Of a stretch of 64,000 bases of DNA, positions 478 through 57,128 are shown in pieces (positions within the stretch are counted from its first letter, which is position 1; every line of letters begins with the position of its first letter). The DNA comes from Caenorhabditis elegans (lineage: Eukaryota > Nematoda > Chromadorea > Rhabditida > Rhabditidae): positions 12,524,001 to 12,588,000 of the forward strand of contig NC_003282.8 in the NCBI RefSeq assembly GCF_000002985.6, read 5' to 3'. The notes under the pieces are model-generated. The model did no database searches. It had not been told where the DNA came from and saw only the letters and a list, made by a program, of their open reading frames with translations. The position numbers and the translations under genes are program-made.

Positions 478-1509
478 TTACAACGGTGTTCCAGGATCTT
501 CCAGCTCGTCCTCCACAAACTCTGTAATCGAGTCAGGGTTGTGCTTCAGTGCGTCCCTGTATGTCCTTTTGAAGTGAAAGATGATCTGCTCGGCCTGCAT
601 AATCTGGAAGTCCACCTTGACTTGCGCGTCTTCAAAGTTCGGATTGAAGTGCATGCCGAGACGTTGGATTGCGATTTTCAGATCCGCAAGCAGCAAGTAG
701 GCATCTCGTGCCAGATTCTTCCGGTACTCCACGAAGCTGTCAAGGTTCCATGCCGATTCGCGGAAGAAGTGCTCGTACACTCGTCCCATTTCGTCGACGG
801 TCAAGCGGCAGTTCTAAATATAATTAAATTTTTCATGTAAAATAGAGGTTAAGGAATTTGATCATATTGATACATTCCCGGGATCTGGCTCTAGCTTCTT
901 GTCCAAGTTTGACCCAAAAAATATTAACTTGGATTAGAAGTTGGCTAAACTTGGGCAATAGTTGGGCATGACTTTGGCGCGCCAGAATGAATGATTTTGA
1001 CAGTTACGCAACCCGTCTGATTTCCCTTAATCCCTTCCGAAATACCACTCACCATAACCTTATCAGCCAGTGGATCATCTTTTGTGTAGGCCTGGAAAAT
1101 GTCTTCAAGGCCTTTGTCAAGCTCTTGAGAAGTCTCCAAAATCTTGTTGAGCGTCGCCTCATAACGATCCGCATAGATCTGAACATCCAGTTGCATTGCA
1201 CGCCTTCCGGCTGGACACTGAAATTATTGAAGGTTTTTTTCAAAATTAAATTGTGAAAGATCTCACCTCAACGAGCTCACAACGAGCATCATAGAGTCGC
1301 TGAAACTCTTTCTTATCCAAATCCTCAGTCATCAACCGCGGTGCCTGTGGGAGTAGATAATAGTCGACTTGGGATCGTGCAGCCCGACGTTCGTATCTTC
1401 CTGGGGAATACCGGATAAATGCATCATGACACTGCGACTCCGGCTGAGGAATATTCGGAAACTCCTGTGACGCCATGATTCGGCGATGAACGGCAAGGCA
1501 TTGTCCCAT
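478..1509 (-). CDS. Uncharacterised helical protein, 3 exons, 247 aa
   Basis: Spliced from three exons: 1509-1267, 1217-1053 and 813-478. All junctions are in phase 0, with GTGAG donors and TTTCAG or TTTAG acceptors. The first ATG at 1509 was chosen; an in-frame ATG at 1476 could also start the protein. The product is hydrophilic and mostly helical, without signal peptide or membrane segment. Its middle and end are rich in Leu, Glu and Lys, as in coiled-coil or helical-bundle subunits, and the C-terminus is acidic (EFVEDELEDPG). I do not recognise the family and assign no function. AATAAA on the minus strand near 400 fits a short 3' UTR. Clean frame continuity over three exons makes it very likely a real gene. 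Confidence 0.8.
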
Positions 1510-2398
1510 GATGGTGGGGAGGAAGTAAGAATGAATGGGGGAAATTGTCGAGATGGTCTGGGGCTGCTAATTGTTTTTTGTCTTTTTATATTTTTTGACC
1601 AATTTTTCTCAGAATTCATACATATTTTCGATAACAAGGAATACTGTAAATTAGGAAAAGGGGAAGCAATAAAAATTCGTAAAATTATAACAAAAGTGGA
1701 GTGAGACACAGAAATTTGGAAAGGGAAGTGGATTTAAATTGCTGTGGGAACAGTCTGAATTCTCCTTAAAATTTAATTTACCGGATTATGAAGAAATTTC
1801 CCAAATTCCAGTAGGCAAGCACGTTTCCTCCTACTGTATTCTTGCCTGCCTACAAGCTTGCCTACTGCCTAGGCATCTGAATTTTTGCAAACAATTAAAG
1901 GATCGGAAATAATTTTGCAAGTCTATAGGCACGTTTTGTAGGCAGGAATCAGGTGTAGGTCTCCTTACAAGGCAGATGTGAATTTTTACGAAGCAGATCG
2001 GGTCTCACTACAAAACGTGTCGGTTACTGTAGCTAGCAAGTTTTCTGAATCTTAAATTTGATCTGATAGTGAGCAGATAAAAAACGTTAGTGGGAAATGT
2101 GGTCTCACTTTGAAGATCAAGTTTCAAATTGAAATTTCGAATAAGATTGAAAAAATCTACCATAACCATTAGTTTTCATGGCGAGACCTCTCATGAATCA
2201 TGATTACATTTCGAAGATTTTGGTATGCTGATTTGAAATTTGTAAATTTTGAATCAAACATTTTTTATTAACAAATAAAAACTTCAAAGTGAAAAATTCA
2301 AAACGTCCACAAATTAAATTTGACATCCAGATTCATATTCTTCTTATTAATTTTCCACTTAACAATTTTTTTTTCTTCCAAATGATCCAAAGCCCACA
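1510..2398. other. Intergenic region with degenerate GCCT/TAGGC-rich repeat
   Basis: Left part is the 5' region of the minus-strand gene ending at 1509. Positions about 1810-1990 carry many short GCCTGCC/TAGGCA words in both orientations, resembling sequence also seen near 6040-6115, 13490-13670, 59810-59930 and 61900-61970. The right part has a minus-strand AATAAA near 2269-2264 that probably serves the next gene. No coding frame seen. Confidence 0.5.
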
Positions 2399-3219
2399 CT
2401 AACGGCGTGAAGCAGCAGCTCTCATATCACGCAATGCTTTCGGAGCCTTATGAAGATTGGCGACTAGAGCCAAATATGGAAGACGGGGTGGTCTTGGGGC
2501 TGGTACCCGGATCTTTCTGGCTCTGGGGACTTTTGGCCCTTGTGCTTCAGAGCCTTGATGTGGTTTTTCCTTGATGCTTCTCAAAGCTTCCAACTTTTTT
2601 TGAATCTTCAGTGCTTTTCTCTCCAGTTTCTTATCTTTTTTGGCTCGTTTCTGCTCCTCTCGACTTCGTTTTAAGGTCAGTTGAAGTTCGAGTTTCTCCA
2701 ATTTTTCCAGCTTTCTTTCCGGAGTGTTTTCCTTGGAGCGTACCCTTTTCTGGTGTTTCCCAACATTTCCCAGCTTGGATCTCAGTCGTTTCTTTCCACC
2801 CATGTTATTCTTCGGGGCTCTTTTCTTCCCAACTTTCACGTCATCTTTTTCTGAAATTTGCGAATCTCATTCGAGTATGTAATATAATCTGCCAAACGTA
2901 AACTAGACTTATCACATAGATTTATTACGATAATTTGCTCGTCAAATCTGTTGTTTATAAAGTTTTCGCGTCAAATTTGCGTATTTGCTATACCGTTCAG
3001 TGAACTAAAATTTTCCGAACACTACAATCGACGCTCAACACTAAAAGTCAAATGTAATTCCTTACTAACCTTGCGTACTCATAGCATCTCCCAAATCCTC
3101 CTCCGGCTCCACCTGTGGCTCCTCCACCTTATTTCTCTTAAGCTTTCCCACTGTAAATTTGAGCATTTTCAAATTTTTCTCGACTTTAAAAACTTACACA
3201 ACTTCTTGCCCATTGGCAT
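2399..3219 (-). CDS. Small very basic coiled-coil protein, 3 exons, 184 aa
   Basis: Exons 3219-3198, 3150-3070 and 2850-2399 join in frame (22+81+452 nt = 185 codons with the stop). Donors are GTAAGTTT and GTTAGTAAG; acceptors are TTACAG and TTTCAG. The protein starts MPMGKKLLGKLKRNK, then has a short acidic stretch (EPQVEPEEDLGD). The rest is extremely rich in Lys, Arg and Glu and predicted as a long charged helix (for example KLEKLEKLELQLTLKRS), followed by a Pro/Arg segment (RVPAPRPPRLPYL) and ending AAASRR. Such composition is typical of nucleolar or nucleic-acid-binding proteins, but I see no defined domain and name no family. The short exon 1 (7 codons plus one base) rests on the only upstream ATG with a good donor. 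Confidence 0.75.
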
Positions 3220-4562
3220 TTTCAGTTCAAAGCAATTGATTTTAGCAGTACAAGTAACCACTGAAATTGCAGGCACTGAGGAGGGTTTTTGTATCAATTT
3301 CTTATCAAAGAGTTTTTATCATCAATAATGTTTATAAGTGTGGAATTCTGAAATAGTGATGTTGACTATGAGTAAGGTAGTATTAAAATTGAAAATGTCA
3401 TGTGAAATGGGAATGTTGACAGGAAAGATTATTGGAAAGTATGGGGAAATCGTGAGACCCAGAGGGAAAAGATGGGTGACGGGATTGCGAAATCAAAGTG
3501 TTGAAATTTTTAACTACAAAATTCACTAGAAATATGCTTAACAAATATTACACCCAAAGCATTTCAGCATTTCGAAAATTTTAACTTAGGCAATGTTTTA
3601 AATTTTTTAATATTCGAAATTTTCATTAACATTTGATTTTTTCAGACTACTGCCAGGTACAGCAACCCTCGGTTTTTACTGTGTGACCAATTTTTATCGA
3701 TGACATAAAGTTATGGTATATTTATATTCAAATTTAAGTTTTTAAGTTTTCTGATTTTTAATCTTATGAATTACTATACAATTCAAGATTTAAAACATCT
3801 AACAGCTCATCGTCGTCGTTCAACATCTCCCCAACTCAAATTCAAATCTAGAAAAAGTGCTTTTGTTCCTTACAAAAACCGCCAAAAGGAATGAGTAACA
3901 GATTGTCATATCACTATCCCATCACATTGCCGCCGGAAATTGGCAAATAGAAAAGGACGACGGGTATTTGAATTCAAACTGGAAAACATTTTTGTAGTTG
4001 GAAGAGTCGAATAGTTTTGGCAAAGTTAATGCAAATCTACCTAAAAACCTAAAAGAGATGTTATAATAATTGTGTATTTGTAAAAATCATGGAAGCCGAC
4101 ACTTTACTGATCATATTTAACTTTAAAAAAATCCTTTTTCTCACATTTTGTTGCCTGAAAACTTGAAATATTTTAGGAGTGAAGAAATTTGGAAAAAATC
4201 AATTACCGGTAATTACCCCCTATGTTCCAAAAACATTTAAAATCCTCTTTCCCCCATTCCTAATCCATCTATTCATCATCATCTCATCAATTGTTTATGC
4301 ACCTGTTCAGGAAGTGCACATAACATCTAATTGTCCAAAAAGAGTACACAAACCGGTAGAAAAATCGCAGTTGAAGAGCCAGTAATCTGTCAGTAATCTG
4401 ATTGGAATTCGAGTGAACAAATAAAAACAGGTGTATTGGAAATGTTCAAGTAATTTTAAATATCACAGAAACGTAATTAGACAACATTTTCTGCTGATTG
4501 ATGGGTTGATATTTTAAACCTACACAATCAAAATTCGTATTTTTATTTTCAAACGAGTAAAT
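3220..4562. other. Intergenic region containing one copy of a dispersed repeat
   Basis: AT-rich sequence between two minus-strand genes. Positions about 3770-3985 match 8100-8330 (listed separately). The remaining part has no frame with coding-like composition or splice sites; short open frames at 3338-3529 and 4179-4385 look like chance. Confidence 0.5.
3770..3985 (+). repeat. Dispersed repeat A, copy 1
   Basis: About 215 bases closely similar, in the same orientation, to 8100-8330. The best conserved block runs from the words CTCCCCAACTCAAATT through GAATGAGTAACAGATTG to GCCGCCGGAAATTGG and GGACGACGG. No open frame is conserved between the copies, so it is more likely a non-autonomous dispersed repeat than an exon. 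Confidence 0.75.
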
Positions 4563-7140
4563 TCAAATGCTCATGCTGTGAAAGTCGTCTGAGAGCTTGC
4601 TGTAGCAAATCACAGAACATCCTTTGGCAATATCTTCATCTTTCCGTTCAGGTGGCGCCAAGTCATTCATCAAAGATTTCAGTTCGGCTTTTTGAATCGA
4701 AAACTGAAACACACGGATTGTTAAGTCTAAGGATATTCAACTAACGTTTGCTCCAGCTCTCTCAATACATCCCAAAATATCCAAACGTTGGAACAATGTG
4801 TACTGCCATGGATGCTCACGGAGCAGTTCAGTTGCAGTTGTCGCCGCCTTTTCATTCAAACGAACATCATCAAAATCGAGAAGAGCTGGAAAATGCTGTA
4901 CTATTCCTAAGGAGACGAGAAGATACGTTTGATGCTCATCTGCAGTTGCCAATAGATTTCCAATAATCCACAGACATTCCTGAAATAACCATAGATAATT
5001 TCTAAGCTCGAAAATAAATTTTGTTTCAAAAGATGTGTTCAAAGCTAACTACAGTATTGTCTCTATTGTACTTGCACCCTCATTAATTCACTTTGACGGC
5101 TCATATCTTGACTGTCTCAAGTGTTATCAAACAATTTCACTATCAAAACGTAGAAAAACATTTTGCACGTATTTCTTCAGTTGACAATTTTTTGATAAAA
5201 CGGAAGTGAATCGAGATATATGCCCTGTCAATGTAAAACAATGGTGGTGCATGTCTAATAAATAAAATACTGTTCATATAATTTTATATCAGCTTACCTT
5301 TCTCAAGCGTTTGTCTCCAGTATGAATCCCAGCCATCACCCATTCATAGAAAGCATCTGGATCATCCATTACTGAAAACATAGATCCTATTCAGTAATCA
5401 AATAAATATAAAACTAACTGTAATCCACGTGTCTTGGAGCACCGGCAACAACGTTTGATATGATCCATGCGGCTTCACTGTGATGCTCCGGAGATGACAT
5501 TGCAATATTCTGAAAAAATATTTTTAATTTTCAATTTTGATGTCAAAAACGTACCATAACAACTCTAAACTTGGGATTATCAACCAACAGATCAGTCTGA
5601 ACATCATTCCCGACTGCAATATTTCCAATAAGGCGGAGGCATGAAACATTGCATGACTTGTCCGTTTGATCAATAAATTTTTCGAGAATATGCTCAACAA
5701 CGTAGTTTTGGGAAAGAAGCATGTCGATCTGAAAGTTTTAGTAAAGAACTTTGATTAACAATAATCCGAAAACAAACCCGTGTGGTATCTAGTGAGTTGT
5801 CAACCAAATTGGCAAGAGTCCATAAAATCATTGAACCACATCCCATATTATCGACAGCGTCTGTGTCGAGTAAAATTGCAGACAAAGCACAAATAAGTGA
5901 ACGAGCTACTGGTGATGGCATCGTTGTTCGGCCACCGGAAAAAATATTATTGACACACCAAATGAGTTGGCGTCGGTCTGCATCGTCGAGTTTATACGAC
6001 GTTTGTAAGTTTCTGGCGAGTATCTGAAGTTGGAATTTATTTAGACATGGTAGACAGGCATGCTTTCAAAGGCCAGACGCTTGCCTGAAGCGCCTGCCTA
6101 AAGCGCCTAAATGCAGCCGTAACAGTTGTTTTCATTTGTGCTGTGGATGGATTCTAAAATGTCCTACAAACCCTTATAATTACCTTCAAAAGTTTAGGTG
6201 ATCTACATTTCAATTTGCACGAAGAACAATCAGCTGCAATATTTGCAATTGCCCAAACAGTTTGACTTGAGAGACGAGCGTTTTGAGACCGAACGAGTTT
6301 GATCAAGATATCTAGACAATTCTGAAAAAAAAACAATTTTCCTAAAAATCAATTTTCAGACTGACCGAGTTTACAAACAAGTGAGTAACTTCCTGGCTAA
6401 TACAACACATATTAGTGATAATCCAAACAGCGTTAACCTCACTGTCAATGTCTAACGTTTGATTACGAAGAGCATTGAGAACGCCATTCTTCTAAAAAAA
6501 AGAGTTTGAATTAATTGAAACAATTTCGTCGGAACTAACAATTCTTCCATAAAACTGCTCCTTCAGAGCGATGTTCGATAAATCTGACTGATTGGCAAAA
6601 GCTTTACGAAAAAAGTGTAGAGCTGTGGACAGTTGAATACGGCATGAGGATTCGAGCATTGAGATGATAAAGGAAATGTCAAATGTTGCTGATTGTTCAG
6701 GTTGGGAATTCTGTATAAAAATTGAAGTATAGATAGAAAGTTGCCGTCCGAGTGAGGCTAACAAGTCGGACGTTATGCTTTTTTTTGGCTTTCCTTTCTG
6801 CGTATCAGATTTTTTTGAATTTCATTATAGCGAGCCAACACTGTGTATTTTGAGATGGAAGTGCAATTGTGCTCCAATGTCAAATGAAAACGGTCCCATC
6901 CATAATAAGAAATCGAGATCACAGTTTAACATACATAACGACCACCAAATTATGGTTTTCAATTTGCGTTGGAGCGCGAGTGCAACTCAACTACAAAAAA
7001 TTCAGGTTTTGCCCCGCCAAAAAAATCATTCTTGGTAAACCATTGCAGCATAAAAAAAGAGAAACATCCGATTTGCCAGCCGTCTGATTCTGATATACTC
7101 TTACCATTTCCTGCTTCGCTTTCTTTGTAGATTTAACCAT
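4563..7140 (-). CDS. Importin-alpha-like armadillo-repeat protein, 10 exons, 476 aa
   Basis: Exons: 7140-7105, 6710-6540, 6491-6366, 6321-6184, 6023-5778, 5728-5555, 5509-5419, 5371-5298, 4979-4746, 4703-4563. All join in frame. The product consists of armadillo-type helical repeats: segments such as [53 protein letters not shown] and [12 protein letters not shown] match the W-x-x-x-N helix that recurs in importin-alpha. Length is close to importin-alpha (about 500), but the usual long basic importin-beta-binding N-terminus is replaced by 12 residues ([12 protein letters not shown]), and the repeats are divergent. It may be a nuclear-import adaptor relative or another armadillo scaffold. Intron 1 (6711-7104) is the longest. 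Intron 4 (6024-6183) holds a GCCT-rich repeat. Confidence 0.85.
6035..6115. repeat. GCCT/AGGC-rich dispersed repeat inside an intron
   Basis: Intron sequence with repeated words such as GCCTGCCTAAAGCGCCTA and CTTGCCTGAAGCGCC. The same vocabulary occurs near 1810-1990, 13490-13670, 59810-59930 and 61900-61970. No coding potential is evident. Confidence 0.5.
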
Positions 7141-49380: not shown

Positions 49381-52300
49381 ATGCGAAGGCTTTTGATACA
49401 TCTAGTTGTCCTTCTAGTACTATTACTAGAAGGACACAATGTTCTAGGGTTTGCAAGTGCGCCAGGGACCTATCCAGAAGAAGAAACACGAGCTGGTAAT
49501 GATATGGAAGTGCCCAAAAATCCATATGAAAGCACATGGACCGGATATGATTTTTATTATGAAAAGGAGCCAAAGAAGGGTACGTTAGAAAAAATATGCA
49601 ATTTTTGAAATTTATTTTCCAAATTATTATCAATTTTTCCCTGTAAATGTTGGCCGAGTTTATCTTGCACTTTATATTACGTTTCATTTCCAGATTATCA
49701 TTTCTCGGCAGTCATGTAGCAAAATCAGAATAGCCTGTCAATAACTTCCTTCTAATTTTCAGTCCCACCCTCCGCAGGCAGCGGAAAAATGCCAGCGTTC
49801 CAGTCGATCGCGTCCATCTCAACAGACCGTGAATCTCCAGAAGACCCAGGAAATAGTGGTTATTTAGCGTCCGGAGCCGAATCTGGACCCAAGAAAACCA
49901 CGTCGAAACCTGCAACAACACCCACTCCAGAACCTACCACTACTCCCGTAGAAGAAGAAAAAGTAAAAGTGTCGCCGAGCAGTAGTACTAAAGGTTGGTG
50001 GAAAGTTGAGTTTTGTGGCCACGTAGAAATATCTCACCTATGCACCAGAACACCTAAATAGTGGTTTCACACACACGTGTTTTATAAAACTTCACTCCAG
50101 ATCCATCAAAGCTGCACAAAACCACCAAAACACCTGTCACTATCACAAATATAATATCAACCACCACTGCACCACCAGCGCCATCTAGAGCACCAGAAAA
50201 TGATCCGGAATCCGGATCCGACCAATCGGAGAGCACTGATAATTTGGATTTACTTTACGGCGGGGGAAGTTCTGCCACAGCCACCGGGGAGGATAAGAAA
50301 GGTATTTGGAATAGGAAAATATAATTGAGTATCTAGAGAATATGTAAAACTAACGTTCTAAATATTTAACATCTGAAAACAATTTTCTAGTAGTGTCACA
50401 TGTCACATTGTAGATTTTGTGTACTGCCTTTTTCAACTTTTGGAGTTCAAATAAAGATAGGTCTTCTGAATACATGTAGTGGCCATTGTCATCGACATAT
50501 AAGCGCAAAATAGCGCACAAGTGGACATATAAGCGCAAAATTCAAAGTTAGCCAGATTATCAAACTGTCTTTAAAACCAGCACGGCACTCTACCACTAAT
50601 AATCCCAACTTTTGCACAGACCCTCCCAAACTGCATGATCCACCTCCACCGCATCCATCTGCACCACAAAACCTTTTAACCCAATTGATTCAAAAGAAGA
50701 AGGATGCACCAAACAAAGGATCATCTGAGAAAAGTTCCAAATGGTCAGATGATCATGCTTCCGGGTATCCGGAGGGAAGTGCTCCTAGCGCTGAGCCATC
50801 TGAAAACCAGTATGAGCAAGATGGTTCTATTCCATCGTCGAATGACTACAAAGAGCTCACAGATGTACCAGGTACAAAGCCAAGCTCTTCAGCTTCACGT
50901 GGTTCAAATATGGCAGGTAACCCCACAGCACCGCTCACCACCACTCAGCACACTTTTGCACCAAACAGCACTGAAACATCAAGATCTTCTACTAGCAGAG
51001 GAAAGGCTCCTGGGACCGAACCTAAGTCTGAAGCTCGGTATAGCTCTCAGAATCCTTACTCAGACAACTCGAGCACCCAGAAGCCAGAATACGAATCTGG
51101 ATACCCAGCGGTGTCTGGAGCAAACTCAAGAGCCCAAATTCCTAATATCACGGACTACACTAAACCATCAGCAGTGTCAATTGAATACGCATCAAGCTCG
51201 AAGGAAAGGTCTGATCCTCCATTTTCAACACCCTTAACATCTAATTCACAACATGTACTTACACAGCCAAGGCCAAGGGATTATGAAGATGGCCCGCAGG
51301 AGACAACTCGGACAAAAGCTAGTGGCACAAAATCACCTAACTCACTCCAAGCACCTCAACAAACTGCAGCACATCTCATGAAAAATGCCAGAGCACCTGG
51401 TCCGGAGCCAAGTCTTCACAGCACTACCACTCACCACGTACAAACACCAATTATCACCATAGCACCCAAGTTTTCAGAACCATCACCATATGCAGAAAAT
51501 ATTATGCTTACACCAAAGCAGGCACCTGGCACCGAACCTCGGTCTAACTCTCAGAACCCTCAAACAGATCGGTTAGCCTCCCAATCAGGATATGAATCCG
51601 GCGGGCCTGGACGTCCACAAAATGTTTCAATAAGACACCGAGAGAATCCAAAGGGATCTGATGCAATTTCAAGAACCGCTATTACTCCTTCTAAGATTGA
51701 TTACTTTGCACCATCGTCACCAACAGGGCCAATTGGATATGAACGTCAAGTCCCGAGTTTCAAGGAAGGACCAGATCATCAATATACAAAATACTCCACG
51801 CTCAATTCACCACCTGCACCATCACCACAAGAGTCAAGCACAATCACTCACCATGTCTCCACATCACCCGACTTTTTAGAGCCATCATCAGAAAGTTCTG
51901 TGCTCTTACCGAAGCAAGCACCCGGCACCAATCCGAGCACGTCTAATAGTCCACCTGGATATTCTGAACTAATTGGCCCCTCTGGTCCCGGTAATGGTCT
52001 ACCTGAAGCACCCAGTCACGCCGCACAAAACATTCCCAGAGCACACACGTTTTCAGAGTCACAAGGGTACGAACCGATGGGAAACAATGGGCCAAGTATC
52101 TTTGAGGGTCCTGGAACAGAATCTGGATATTCTGAGCCTAAAGCTCTTAGTACTGCGTCACAAAAGACTAAACCAGATGACAAGCCATACGAAATACCAC
52201 GTAGCATTGAGCCCAGCAATTCGAAACCATATCCATCTGACAGTTCCTGGTCTGACCATGACAATGCTCCTGGCAGTGAGCCAAGCTACATCCCGGACGT

Positions 52301-54748
52301 TTTAGACTACGGAGCACGAGCCAATAATCACGCGGGCAAAATGATGAATATGTCACATGCCACGTCACCAAGCACCGGTTCACCATCTAACTCGAACAAT
52401 GCGATTTCCGCACGAGACCCATATGATCACTTTGGCACTATCACTGCACCATCTGACATTCCACGTGCCAATTCAAATTTTGAAGAATACCCGGACGATG
52501 GAGGATATGACGGGACGAATGATGTGGCAATTGTGCCTTTGAGGTGATTTTTTGTGGGAAATCGAGTCCTCGATGCATCATGTTTAATCTTGCTCGAAAC
52601 GCATATATCTCGGAAACTACGAGAGCTATCAAAAAGTTGTCAACTAACAAAATGTATAAAAAAGTTTGGCGAACAATTTGTCAGTTAATAACTTTTTATA
52701 GACTTAATAGTTTTGGAGAAAAATCAAGATACAATTAGGCACACACTTTTCAGAACACAGCACGGCACAAATCCTTCCACCATCACTACCACGAACACTC
52801 AAGTGAGAGCACAAATTTCAGAAATTGATCGGATTGCTGGTAAATAATATCGATATTCCAAAAATTTTTGGAAGAAAAATATGAATCTTACATTATTTCA
52901 GAATCTTTCGAGAACTCGGCGCGGGAACCTGTGGAGTATGAACAGCGAATTACTAGTGAATCATCGAAGGGAATTACAGCTGTAACCGGAAAAGATTTTA
53001 TGGTTTTATTTTAAAATTTCAGCCGATTTTTTTGAAATATAATAAAAATTAAACATTACAGAAGAAGCTTGGAAGAAAGTCGCCAACATGTTGCTCATGT
53101 TGTGACGAGAAGCAGTCTGTGAGCAGAAATATTGAGACACAGGTTTAAAAAAAAGCAGCACTGTTTTAAACTTAATAATTTCTAGGCTGACCCATTGCAT
53201 GTTCAACACGCAGTCGACCCATCACGGCAGTTAGGTACGTAAGTTTCCTCAAGACTCCCCCGTTGGTCACAAAAATAGGTTCGAATCCTGCCGTGGTCGA
53301 AACTTTTTTTTGCAGTCGAATCCGAGCCAGTGCAGAACTTTGTCCCTCTCCAGAACACCGTTGGAGGGAACGCCTATATTCAGCCACAACCAGTCGCTCA
53401 ACAACAGTAAGTCTTTGTTTTAAATGGAAATATGTCACTTTTTTTCCAGAACCATCTACCAACAACCTTTCCAGCAATACCAACCACAGTACCCACAATC
53501 TTATCAGCAACCATCCTGCGGGTGCCAGCCACAGCCTCAAAACTGTTGTGCTCCACCTGCTCCTTGCTGTCTCCGTAAGTGACATAAATAATCCGTACAA
53601 TTCATTCTTAGAACTATCTTTGTTCAGCAACAATTCCATGTTGTCCACCAATACCTTGCTGCCCGCAACCGAAGATTTGCTGTCAGCCAGCGCCAGTCTG
53701 TCTCCCTCCACCAACTTGTTGCTCGATTAACTTTAAACTTCCGACTATTCCAATCTGTGGTAGAGCCTGCCCATCGTGTCCATGTCGACGGAGAATGCAC
53801 AAATCACGTCGTCTCAAGCGTCACTCAATTAACTCGAACTGTCATCAGTGCTCTTCTGCCGGTGAGCCATGGAGATCTGTGTTGCATCACCGAGAGAAAC
53901 GTGCAGCTCCGGGATGCACTTCCGGTTTTTCGACGATGGTATGACGTTTCAGAGTGAATGGATAGAACTAAAACTCCACTTTTCAGAGTCAAAATTCGTG
54001 TGGCACATGTGGAGCGTCAAATCTCAGATCGCCACGTGTCAAGCGTATGGGATGTCTGCCGTGTCTGGGAAGAAAGAAGCGAGATACCGATGAGAATTCT
54101 CATATTAGAGTGAAGAGAATGGTGAGTACTGCGAGCTCACAAAAAATCAATTATCAATTTTCTTACAGGGATGTCTTCCATGCCTGGGTCGTAAGAAACG
54201 CAGTACCCTATCACAATCGGGATGTTCTCAATGTAATAGTATGGGTCATTTGTTCAATCGCTACAAGAGGAGTCTATTTGGAGGATGTTCGCCGTGTGCA
54301 CCACAGGTATGAGATTCACGCCTCCCCCAACTTGACTCGAAAAATGCCTCCAATTAAATGCTAGGTGGAATTCAAATTTAGAAAGTACAATGTAAATAAG
54401 TAGCTAACAATAAGATTATAACTTTTGAATAACTTGAAAATCAGTTATGACAAAATGTATACGAAGTTCCGAGTTCCCATGTTACGCCTTGGCCAGGTGA
54501 AACTCAACATTGTAATACGAAAACCAACTCTCAAATCTTGACACTTTTCAGCAACCCTGCGGATGTGGCCGTAAGAAGCGATCGGTCACCATGAAGCTCG
54601 TCAAGAGAGCTCCGATGCAGTGTGACTCCACATGTTGCGACTTTTCAAGGTGAGCACATCTAAGTATTGACTGTAGTGTAACTAACATTTCCTATATTTC
54701 AGATGTCCATATCGCCAGAAGAAAGAAGCGCTGGTGCCGTTTATGTAG
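49381..54748 (+). CDS. Large secreted protein: mucin-like region plus dibasic-flanked Cys peptides, 1264 aa
   Basis: Fifteen exons: 49381-49579, 49763-49993, 50101-50301, 50620-52543, 52754-52839, 52902-52981, 53062-53142, 53186-53234, 53316-53406, 53450-53574, 53628-53938, 53987-54121, 54169-54306, 54552-54649, 54703-54748, all in frame. A signal peptide (MRRLLIHLVVLLVLLLEG) is followed by about 840 Ser/Pro/Thr-rich residues with recurring APGTEP-type motifs. Then come a Gln/Pro-rich part and a C-terminus rich in CC and CxxC. In the last 190 residues Cys segments alternate with KR, REKR and RKKR sites. The block RVKRMGCLPCLGRKKR occurs twice. I infer a processed matrix or peptide precursor; the family is not recognised (K08E7.5 by memory of the clone). 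A donor inside exon 11 (53862) may allow an alternative form. AATAAA at 54853. Confidence 0.85.
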
Positions 54749-55054
54749 AGCTCACAGATGATAAGATCACATCGACGGGTTGTACATACCTCATAGAATC
54801 ATCATATTGACTGCTTATTTCTCAGAGTGTTTTTGAAACATATTATTAATACAATAAATTGCAATAGTTCATTTTTGAAAATCTAACAAAAAAGTAGTAA
54901 GATTAGAAGGACAGAAAAGGAACCGGGTCACCCGAAATTGATGGGATTATGGGCCGGAATGATTGTGTGTGTGAAATTGGAATTATTCAAGGAAGACAAC
55001 TAGAGATCGCAAGTGATTGTTTAAAAAAATATAAATAAGAAAAAATCTAAAAAG
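54749..55054. other. Gap between two convergent genes
   Basis: 306 bases holding the 3' UTR of the large secreted-protein gene (AATAAA at 54853-54858, followed by TTGCAATAG) and the 3' end of the Myb/SANT-like gene. Nothing else seen. Confidence 0.6.
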
Positions 55055-57128
55055 TTATGGACTATGGCTTTTCAAAAACCCATTAATTTTCATGTTCAGA
55101 AATTCGTTTGGACTACTCGACGATGCTATTTCAGACGCTAGAGATTGATGTTGTTGTTGATCATCGTAGAGTTGGAGCTGGCGTTGATAACTGGCAATTT
55201 CCAGACGGAGAGCCTGAAATTAATATCAATTGTGATCTGAAACAGGGGTGGGCTGCAAACGATTTTTCCGGCAAATCGGCAAATTTCCGGAATTGAAAAC
55301 TTCTGGCAAATCGACAAGTTGCCGGAATTGAAAACTTTTGGCAAATCGACAAGTTGCCGGAATTGAAAACTTTTGGCAAATCGACAAGTTGCCGGAATTG
55401 CAAAACTTTTGGCAACTCGGCAAGTTGCCGGAATTGCAAAACTTTTAGCAAATCGGCAAGTTGCCGGAATTGAAAACTTTTGGCAACTCGGCATATTGCC
55501 TGCATTGAAAACTTTTGGCAAATCGGCAAGTTGCCGGAATTGAAAACTTTTGGAAAATCGACAACCCAGCAAATTACCGATTTGCCGAAACTTTCCGGCA
55601 TATTGTGGCTTTGTACATTTCTTTTGGAAATTACAGAACTTCAATTTTTTCAATTTTTTCCAAGTGCGAAATTGTACGCATTCTATGTTCCAACATCTAT
55701 TTTAAAAGTATGCAAATTCTATGAAAATATCTAGAAATATCGGGAAAAAAATTTCAAAAAGGCACAGTTTTAAGTGTTTCCGTCTTATAAAAAGTCCCTC
55801 CAAAAACTTCCGACAAATTGATGTTCGGCAAACGGAAAATCGGCAATATGCCGAAAATCAAAATTACCGGCAAATCGGCAGTTGGCCGATTTTTTTAGTA
55901 TGTTTTATTCACTATTACAATACATAGTTTTAATATTAAAATTTTCTTCAAAATTATCAGAAATTTTTGCTTCAGCTTTGAAAGCTGAGACTTAAATTGA
56001 CAACACATTTTGCTCACTTTTTTCATAATGTAATTGTGTTTTTTTTCAAACTTCAATAACTATGAAACAAGAACTTTGAAGATAAATAACTCTTATAAAT
56101 TCATGATTTACTTTTTCTTGCTCTACGGAATACTCACCTGTTGCTTCAAATGCTCCGTATGCAACTTGGCATCCGCTAACCTCAACTTCTTCTCAATAAG
56201 CAAAGTTTCCGGACTAACATCTCTTTTTTCTCGTTCCTCCTGCTCATCATTACCATTTCCTTCTTCTTTCTCTCTTTCTTGTTTCAACTCTCGCTGCTTC
56301 ATATCCAAATGCAACTGTAACTGATGCAATTGCATTTCAGTCCTTTGTAATTTCAGCCTCTTCGCTTTCGGACCATAAGTGGCTTCCATGATGTCCGACG
56401 CCGAGTCTGCATCGTCGGCTTTTGTGTCCTGTTCGCTCATCATGATTTCCGCCAGGCCGGACATCCAATCGGGTACTGGCCCACGGGAACGTCGTTTTGG
56501 CTCGGCCCAACTAAATTCAGCATAACGTTCGAGTTCTTGTCCCGCATTCATGTTGGTGATACCCAGTTTGTGGGCATGCTTTCGAGAGAATTTTCTGAAA
56601 TTAAACGAATGATATTGAGCTGCTTTGAAAAATGGAAAAAAGGAAAATAAATTTTTACTTGACCCATACCTCATATCCCTAATCCGTTGCTTAATCTGTG
56701 CAGGCGTCCGTTCTGCAAATCCCATCGACGTTATTTCAGTGGCCCATTCTCTTGCCAAGGTATCCTTAAAACTTTGAAAAAAGTTTTTTCGAGCCTAGAA
56801 TGTCTACCTACCATCGGAACTTCCTCATTCCTTTGCCCTGATGGTCGTGTTGAGTGGTATTCTTCACGTCTTCCAGAGTATAGTTCGTATAGCTTCATAT
56901 TTTCGGCTTCTGAAATTTAGTTTTTTTAATTGAAAATTTATCGCAAAAGCTATTTCTTTATTCTATCGAAGATTAAAATTGATTCCTACCATTAAACCCG
57001 ATAGTCTTCGGTTTATCTTCGGGAAGCTGATTTTGCAGCGCAAACTGTGCTCGTAGTATGTGACCGATGGATGATTGTGGAGTGATCGGAGTGTCGACTA
57101 GCGTTTTTCGAGACATTCGTGATGACAT
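55055..57128 (-). CDS. Myb/SANT-like DNA-binding and coiled-coil protein, 5 exons, 315 aa
   Basis: Exons 57128-56990, 56909-56812, 56764-56670, 56594-56138 and 55213-55055. Residues about 48-120 resemble the Myb/SANT-like domain of transposon-derived and nuclear factors: NMKLYELYSGRREEY, then REWATEITSMGFAERTPAQI and KQRIRDMRRKFSRK, where ERTPxQIKxRxRDM is the recognition-helix region. The second half is a long Gln/Glu/Arg coiled coil (LQLHLDMKQRELKQEREKEE) that continues into the last exon (ALRLEIASYQRQLQLYDD). It is probably a nuclear DNA-binding protein. The exon 2/3 intron is only 47 bases with a non-standard TTTTAAG acceptor, the weakest point of the model. The last intron holds a minisatellite. 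The start codon could lie further upstream. Confidence 0.78.
55270..55575 (+). repeat. 35-bp minisatellite, about 8 units, with decayed flank
   Basis: Tandem units close to GGCAAATCGGCAAGTTGCCG followed by GAATTGAAAACTTTT. Starts at 55270 and 55305 give a 35-base period; variants have CGACAAG or an extra A. Each unit contains an inverted CGGCAA/TTGCCG pair, so units can form small hairpins. Related words continue to about 55880 (CGGCAAATCGGCAGTTGGCC). It lies in the last intron of the Myb/SANT-like gene. Confidence 0.9.

Follow-up and report, generated by a model that had tools for sequence, protein, structure and literature searches.

A Caenorhabditis elegans gene with a C-terminal array of R-x-K-R-bounded cysteine cassettes and its sister gene: candidate convertase-processed secreted precursors

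Introduction

To our knowledge, few animals have their peptides and matrix proteins as well catalogued as Caenorhabditis elegans. Its FLP and NLP multi-peptide neuropeptide precursors hold repeated short units between basic sites, some of them with a glycine for amidation. Its cuticle collagens carry Gly-X-Y domains and are cut at RxxR, with BLI-4, either close to the N-terminus or behind a transmembrane domain; RxxR-cut collagens and BLI-4 are also covered by a review (PMC11304992). Secretion of furrow collagens depends on RxxR, with a partial requirement for BLI-4 (PMC13225626). The cysteine-cradle proteins DPY-6 and SPIA-1 (PF23626) are secreted, their transcripts oscillate with the moults, and in DPY-6 a cysteine module at the C-terminus is attached to a mucin-type part; the excerpts of the two articles describe no cleavage-site array in these proteins (PMC11925461, PMC13225626).

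Here we describe a gene in the window, the whole 64-kb stretch of C. elegans DNA that was analysed (C4:12524001-12588000). Its predicted product is of the secreted type like the cysteine-cradle proteins and joins a mucin-like part to a C-terminal cysteine module like DPY-6, but, unlike them as described in these excerpts, it ends in an array of cleavage motifs. It shares with the cuticle collagens a furin-type motif in a putative secreted matrix protein, whereas it has neither their site positions nor their Gly-X-Y domains. From FLP and NLP precursors, this gene and a sister gene differ by full R-x-K-R motifs, Cys pairs and a large mucin-like and Cys-Cys-Pro (CCP) part.

Results

The window gene encodes a secreted-type protein with a C-terminal cassette array

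Removal of 14 GT..AG introns (43-318 bases; acceptors 13 CAG and 1 TAG) from window positions 49381-54748 joined 15 exons into a single open frame of 1264 aa, a structure drawn from the open frame and the splice sites (Table 1). The protein consists, in order, of a signal peptide at the N-terminus (judged by eye), a Cys-free Ser/Pro/Thr-rich part, a Cys-Cys-Pro-rich core and the cassette array. Residues 25-905, which reach into exon 6, are 15% Ser, 13% Pro and 9% Thr with 0 Cys, and APGx[EN]P is repeated five times in the Ser/Pro/Thr-rich part, which also has 5 N-glycosylation sequons; Pfam Mucin scored 13 bits on the protein, below the cut-off of 34.7. Residues 906-1087 contain 23 Cys, with 18% Pro and 14% Gln. 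No Pfam family scored above its cut-off in the scanned parts of the window protein (residues 1-295 and 853-1264) or in the sister protein.

Table 1. Exons of the window gene and copies of its repeated cassette, in window positions.
Feature	Position	Strand	Content	Basis or remark
Exon 1	49381..49579	+	start codon, signal peptide MRRLLIHLVVLLVLLLEGHNVLG	open frame, splice sites; signal peptide by eye
Exons 2-5	49763..52839	+	Ser/Pro/Thr-rich Cys-free part	
Exons 6-10	52902..53574	+	transition; Cys/Pro/Gln-rich core begins	
Exon 11	53628..53938	+	Cys-Cys-Pro core, PICGRACPSCPCRRR block, RLKR (53810), CHQC cassette	block common to sister gene
Exon 12	53987..54121	+	CGTC cassette, RVKR, MGCLPCLG copy 1, RKKR, spacer DTDENSHI, RVKRM	
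RVKRMGCLPCLGRKKR copy 1	54035-54082	+	residues 1143-1158	exon 12
RVKRMGCLPCLGRKKR copy 2	54107-54121 + 54169-54201	+	residues 1167-1182	exon 12/13 junction
Exon 13	54169..54306	+	remainder of copy 2, CSQC cassette, RYKR, SLFGGCSPCAPQ	
Exon 14	54552..54649	+	QPCGCG-RKKR, SVTMKLVKRAPMQCDSTCCDFS	
Exon 15, proximal acceptor	54703..54748	+	RCPYRQKKEALVPFM, stop	first-pass annotation; acceptor ATTTCAG
Exon 15, distal acceptor	54719..54761	+	RRKKR-WCRLC-RAHR, stop; one extra cassette	proposed; acceptor TCGCCAG, weaker

Upstream of the gene, Pfam identified one open reading frame with a TLDc domain and one with a DEP domain; we take these to be eak-7 and let-99 of cosmid K08E7, and the window gene to be most likely K08E7.5. 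K08E7.5 has been listed with a cassette exon whose length is not a multiple of 3, with the largest difference between L1 and L4 (PMC2265522). When window exon 4, 5, 6, 8, 9, 10 or 11 was skipped singly, the translated frame was shifted and the protein stopped with the array missing. A study that used an amyloid strain and filtered genes by STRING also names K08E7.5 as one of 16 hubs in a STRING-based network stage, the others including grl-7, qua-1 and F33D4.6, a cysteine-cradle gene; this stage gave four sub-networks, including moulting cycle and body morphogenesis and otherwise mRNA splicing and heat stress, and the excerpts of the article do not place K08E7.5 itself in the moulting sub-network (PMC6619800). 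Both published mentions are list entries, and in the excerpts of the two articles neither speaks of a neuropeptide (PMC2265522, PMC6619800).

Several other features were observed at the locus. Thirteen of the 15 Ser-Gly dipeptides of the window protein lie in the Ser/Pro-rich part (49763-52839), some beside acidic residues, which is the pattern seen in chondroitin attachment sites. By eye, a tRNA-like stretch lies at about 53220-53312, in the region of intron 8 and the donor site of exon 8, with CGGCAG...CTGCCG arms, a GGTTCGAATCC box and a T run. A tRNA around exon 8, suspected from this box, was called neither by ARAGORN (bacterial setting) nor by Rfam; the stretch would be a remnant at most and may have been the source of exon 8. 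Just 3' of the gene, positions 55270-55564 hold a tandem array of 8.4 copies of the 35-base unit GGCAAATCGGCAAGTTGCCGGAATTGAAAACTTTT, and a string similar to it by eye occurs in a chromosome I locus (L010, about 6800-6920).

R-x-K-R motifs and Cys pairs are concentrated in the C-terminal array

The first-pass annotation had described dibasic cleavage sites at the C-terminus. Basic sites are indeed there, but they match the complete furin-type motif R-x-K-R, which is stronger as a signature than a dibasic pair. The array begins at about 53810 (residue 1084) and every site in it is R-x-K-R, with 8 sites in the last 181 residues when the proximal last exon is used and 9 in the last 180 with the distal acceptor, while residues 1-1083 contain no R-x-x-R at all. 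Shuffles of the 181 residues gave a mean of 0.19 sites and never as many as 8 (0/20,000); like all array statistics here, these are shuffles of residues or bases that leave codon and lineage constraints aside. CxxC was found in 6/8 fragments (shuffle mean 1.6; 1/20,000), and exactly two Cys at CX2C or CX5C, the latter spacing chosen post hoc with the data already seen, in 4/8 (shuffle mean 0.32; 2/20,000), both identical copies of the repeated cassette being counted each time. With the distal acceptor, 5/9 fragments had exactly two Cys at these spacings (0/20,000 shuffles). Two fragments are off-scheme, namely DTDENSHI without Cys and the last one with CX3CC. The further Cys segments of the first-pass annotation are all present, with the correction that AAPGCTSGF belongs to a longer fragment, AAPGCTSGFSTM-SQNSCGTCGASNLRSP, encoded by exons 11/12. 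Against NCBIfam and PDB sequences, 196 array residues had no match up to E 1.

When the 64-kb window was translated unspliced in six frames, R-x-K-R-x(0,12)-CxxC matched five times, all five within the window gene, and one of these matches sits in the other frame of the proximal-acceptor last exon. The distal acceptor (TCGCCAG/AAG; slashes mark splice junctions), 16 bases downstream of the proximal one, is in frame with exon 14 and gives ...CDSTCCDFS-RRKKR-WCRLC-RAHR with the stop at 54761. Its terminal cassette resembles the CxxC end of the sister protein, QCYPCPGTRS. R-x-K-R followed by CxxC in any of three frames arose in 24/200,000 shuffles of 54703-54761, a test made post hoc on a string already noticed. 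The distal acceptor may give a different or alternative form of the last exon. The proximal ATTTCAG nearly matches the worm consensus and is the stronger splice signal of the two, hence both acceptors may be in use.

A 16-residue cassette is repeated and kept by selection

As the first-pass annotation had noticed, the 16 residues RVKRMGCLPCLGRKKR occur twice in the spliced product, with 16/16 residues identical and 10/16 codons silently different (13/48 bases). The two copies start 24 residues apart, and the second is interrupted by an intron (54122-54168; phase 0, after Met). When the copies were compared as had been proposed, the proportion of synonymous sites changed was 0.85, which is beyond Jukes-Cantor correction, hence no dS is given. 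Independent codon choice for this peptide would produce 9.6 differences (67% of draws gave 10 or fewer), and therefore no nucleotide kinship is left between the copies beyond what the peptide imposes. Because the codon differences match independent choice and the synonymous proportion is 0.85, the copies are synonymously saturated. Identity stops at both cleavage motifs (upstream ..SNLRSP vs ..ENSHI, downstream DTDEN.. vs STLSQ..). The unit from R-x-K-R to R-x-K-R was kept at synonymous saturation and the spacers diverged, which bears out the earlier claim of selection on the repeated peptide; copying followed by purifying selection would be the simplest account of the pair.

A degenerate codon pattern for CLPCLGRKKR had 2 matches in the 100-Mb genome, both in the window gene, and its backward control had 0. 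It is scarcely credible that the cassette represents two unrelated short motifs, alike by chance or convergence: such an origin would agree with the loss of nucleotide similarity past what the peptide forces, but the eight non-basic residues MGCLPCLG are identical twice at so short a distance, and the two copies are the only places in the genome that the pattern matches. Very improbable, too, is that MGCLPCLGRKKR acts as an internal start whose product would be myristoylated and palmitoylated at its N-terminus. MGCxxC with a basic cluster resembles dual-lipidation signals and an exon begins right after the second ATG codon; however, both copies of MGCLPCLGRKKR lie inside one long secreted frame, and MGC is absent from the other window cassettes and from the 14 fragments of the sister protein.

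A sister gene in the same genome follows the same scheme

The window array used as query found one other place in the genome, on a different chromosome, C1:839016-839123 (E 0.002, 47% over 36 aa), and the reverse search from the sister block returned the window gene (E 0.001). The sister gene spans C1:837997-841656, with 7 exons, 765 aa and a signal-like start. We take it to lie next to zfh-2 and to be perhaps ZC123.1, for which no mention was found in open-licence full texts. Sister residues 75-279 contain 39 Cys and 25% Pro and are followed by the block CLRACPSCPCRKR. The block PxCxRACPSCPCRxR is common to both genes, and within it 10/11 residues of RACPSCPCRxR are identical.

From residue 359, the R-x-[KR]-R sites of the sister protein (16/17 are R-x-K-R) bound 14 fragments, namely 7 with CX2C, 4 with CX5C, 2 with a single Cys and 1 without Cys. 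Exactly two Cys at CX2C or the post hoc spacing CX5C were thus present in 11/14 fragments (shuffle mean 0.48; 0/20,000), and CxxC alone in 7/14 (shuffle mean 1.24; 0/20,000). Phase-0 introns lie just upstream of cassette Cys in both genes (KRM/GCLPC and APQ/QPCGC in the window gene; KRAG/CLPHPQC and GTA/QCYPC in the sister). The two genes therefore agree in a signal-like start, a Cys-Cys-Pro core, the block, Cys-pair cassettes bounded by R-x-K-R and the position of these introns. The sister gene differs in that it lacks the long Ser/Pro-rich part, has a larger number of cassettes, uses CX5C as second spacing and holds a single Gly-RKKR, and it has a CxxC cassette at the very C-terminus, which the window gene has only with the distal acceptor.

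Queries with sister sequence (part of exon 4; exons 5 and 6; the CCP core) matched themselves only and did not return the window gene, so outside the shared block the arrays are alike in scheme and not in alignable sequence. In protein searches of the same genome, five queries taken from the arrays or the block revealed no third member at E <= 10, and nothing beyond the two genes came from the CCP core (E <= 1) or from a portion of the Ser/Pro-rich exon (E <= 0.1), in searches run exon by exon with few candidates scored, which could miss weak relatives. Since the block and R-x-K-R-separated Cys-pair cassettes were found in both genes, we propose a two-gene CX2C/CX5C cassette family, a comparison of two members in one genome with weak overall similarity (47% over 36 residues). 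PF23626, which the scanned Pfam library should include to judge from its date and a later-numbered match, had no match up to E 10 in window residues 1-295 and 853-1264 and none up to E 1 in the sister protein; in the parts scanned, neither protein belongs to the cysteine-cradle aECM family.

Upstream of the sister gene, at about 4500-5480 of locus L010, a long GGCTTA-rich stretch is present in two near-identical copies; GGCTTA is a telomere-like hexamer.

Convertase-like motifs prevail and amidation contexts are few

P2 is Lys in 25/26 R-x-[KR]-R sites of both proteins, and P3 is varied (V, K, Y, E, T, S, R, L, G). By this motif test, the window protein is of secreted type with R-x-[KR]-R sites, as for a furin-processed apical matrix protein; its signal peptide (by eye) with repeated units between basic sites is equally what a neuropeptide-type precursor has. 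At the sister R-x-K-R sites (L011, about 1177-3080; residues 359-750), Asn plus a large hydrophobic residue follows 4/17 (NM, NL, NF, NF) and Gln follows two of 17 (QA, QF), as if these residues formed a constrained new N-terminus.

The window tail contains 13% Arg, 8% Lys and 11% Cys. This composition, cleavage itself being a prediction, would suit R-x-K-R as uncut basic linkers in an intact Cys-rich tail that binds polyanions (chondroitin, mucin glycans) and whose CX2C pairs cross-link chains. We hold this to be unlikely, since P2 Lys at nearly every site with a variable P3 is the signature of a convertase-like cut, and charge on its own would not call for it.

Gly precedes 4/26 R-x-[KR]-R sites (9 distal-acceptor window sites and 17 sister sites), that is 3/9 in the window protein and 1/17 in the sister, each time at RKKR; the repeated copies account for two of these four. 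Amidation as a general feature, put forward in the first-pass annotation, was thus not borne out, and the units do not show the regular Gly donor before the C-terminal site of an amidated multi-peptide precursor. Amide formation may hold for MGCLPCLG, for NLIGSQYCEPCNGHYG and for the fragment with QQPCGCG at its end, and is not descriptive of the two-gene family. What stands of the multi-peptide precursor proposed there are the Cys cassettes between convertase-type motifs, the selection on the repeated cassette and the sister gene of the same scheme.

It appears doubtful that the array gives rise to free bioactive peptides, be they neuropeptide-like, hormonal or antimicrobial, of which some would have a CxxC disulfide ring and end in an amide, MGCLPCL-amide being an example. 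Cassette identity that ends at the cleavage motifs and is kept at synonymous saturation speaks for such peptides, as do the three window sites with Gly before RKKR and the phase-0 introns before cassette Cys, which peptide-unit shuffling would give. On the other hand, Gly is rare over all 26 sites and above all in the sister, the sister and window cassettes have by eye no common core besides the Cys pair, most of the protein is taken up by the mucin-like part and the CCP core and does not resemble a short neuropeptide precursor, and no neuropeptide paper naming the window gene was found in open-licence full texts. Free peptides and a matrix protein would share the first step, a predicted cleavage after R-x-K-R.

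Discussion

We propose, at roughly even confidence, that the window gene product is a convertase-processed secreted precursor of the worm apical extracellular matrix. We read it as a secreted protein that would be processed by a furin-type protease and form disulfides, and that more probably belongs to the apical matrix of the moulting cycle than to the classical neuropeptide precursors. The matrix reading is favoured by the large mucin-like and CCP parts, by the complete furin motifs, by the moulting link, weak as it is, and by what is known of furrow collagens.

From these features we infer array cleavage, the protease, a matrix location and cross-linking as follows. A furin-like convertase in the secretory pathway would cut after R-x-K-R of the C-terminal array, with BLI-4 as the first candidate in C. 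elegans and KPC-1 as the second; inactivation of kpc-1 alone, reported to give no furrow collagen phenotype in the excerpts of that article (PMC13225626), counts against KPC-1. Cutting would separate the mucin-like N-terminal part and the Cys-Cys-Pro core from 7 or 8 short pieces, most with CxxC, and the expected cassette peptides include MGCLPCLG, MGCLPCL-amide, STLSQSGCSQCNSMGHLFN and NFLGEDCNICTQDTGLK. The Cys of these pieces would form disulfides and could help to cross-link or order new cuticle or pre-cuticle.

In the main text of open-licence full texts, we found no description of the window/sister pair or of a cassette array of such regularity in two genes, and among the papers on multi-site furin matrix proteins or CxxC peptide precursors in worms none deals with this family, to judge from title and opening of the abstract. 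Tentatively, it is possible that the two genes encode polyproteins from which a convertase frees about 8 to 14 short peptides, most with one CX2C/CX5C pair, to serve as signals or as thiol-disulfide exchangers of the cuticle; if so, they would represent a new class of nematode secreted peptides. Overall, the sequence features suggest a small cysteine peptide or matrix building block of a kind that we have not found described. If the cassettes are released, they would form a new peptide class, and if they stay in the matrix, they would suggest how a cross-linking reagent can be made, with a single precursor cut up into many pieces that hold a Cys pair.
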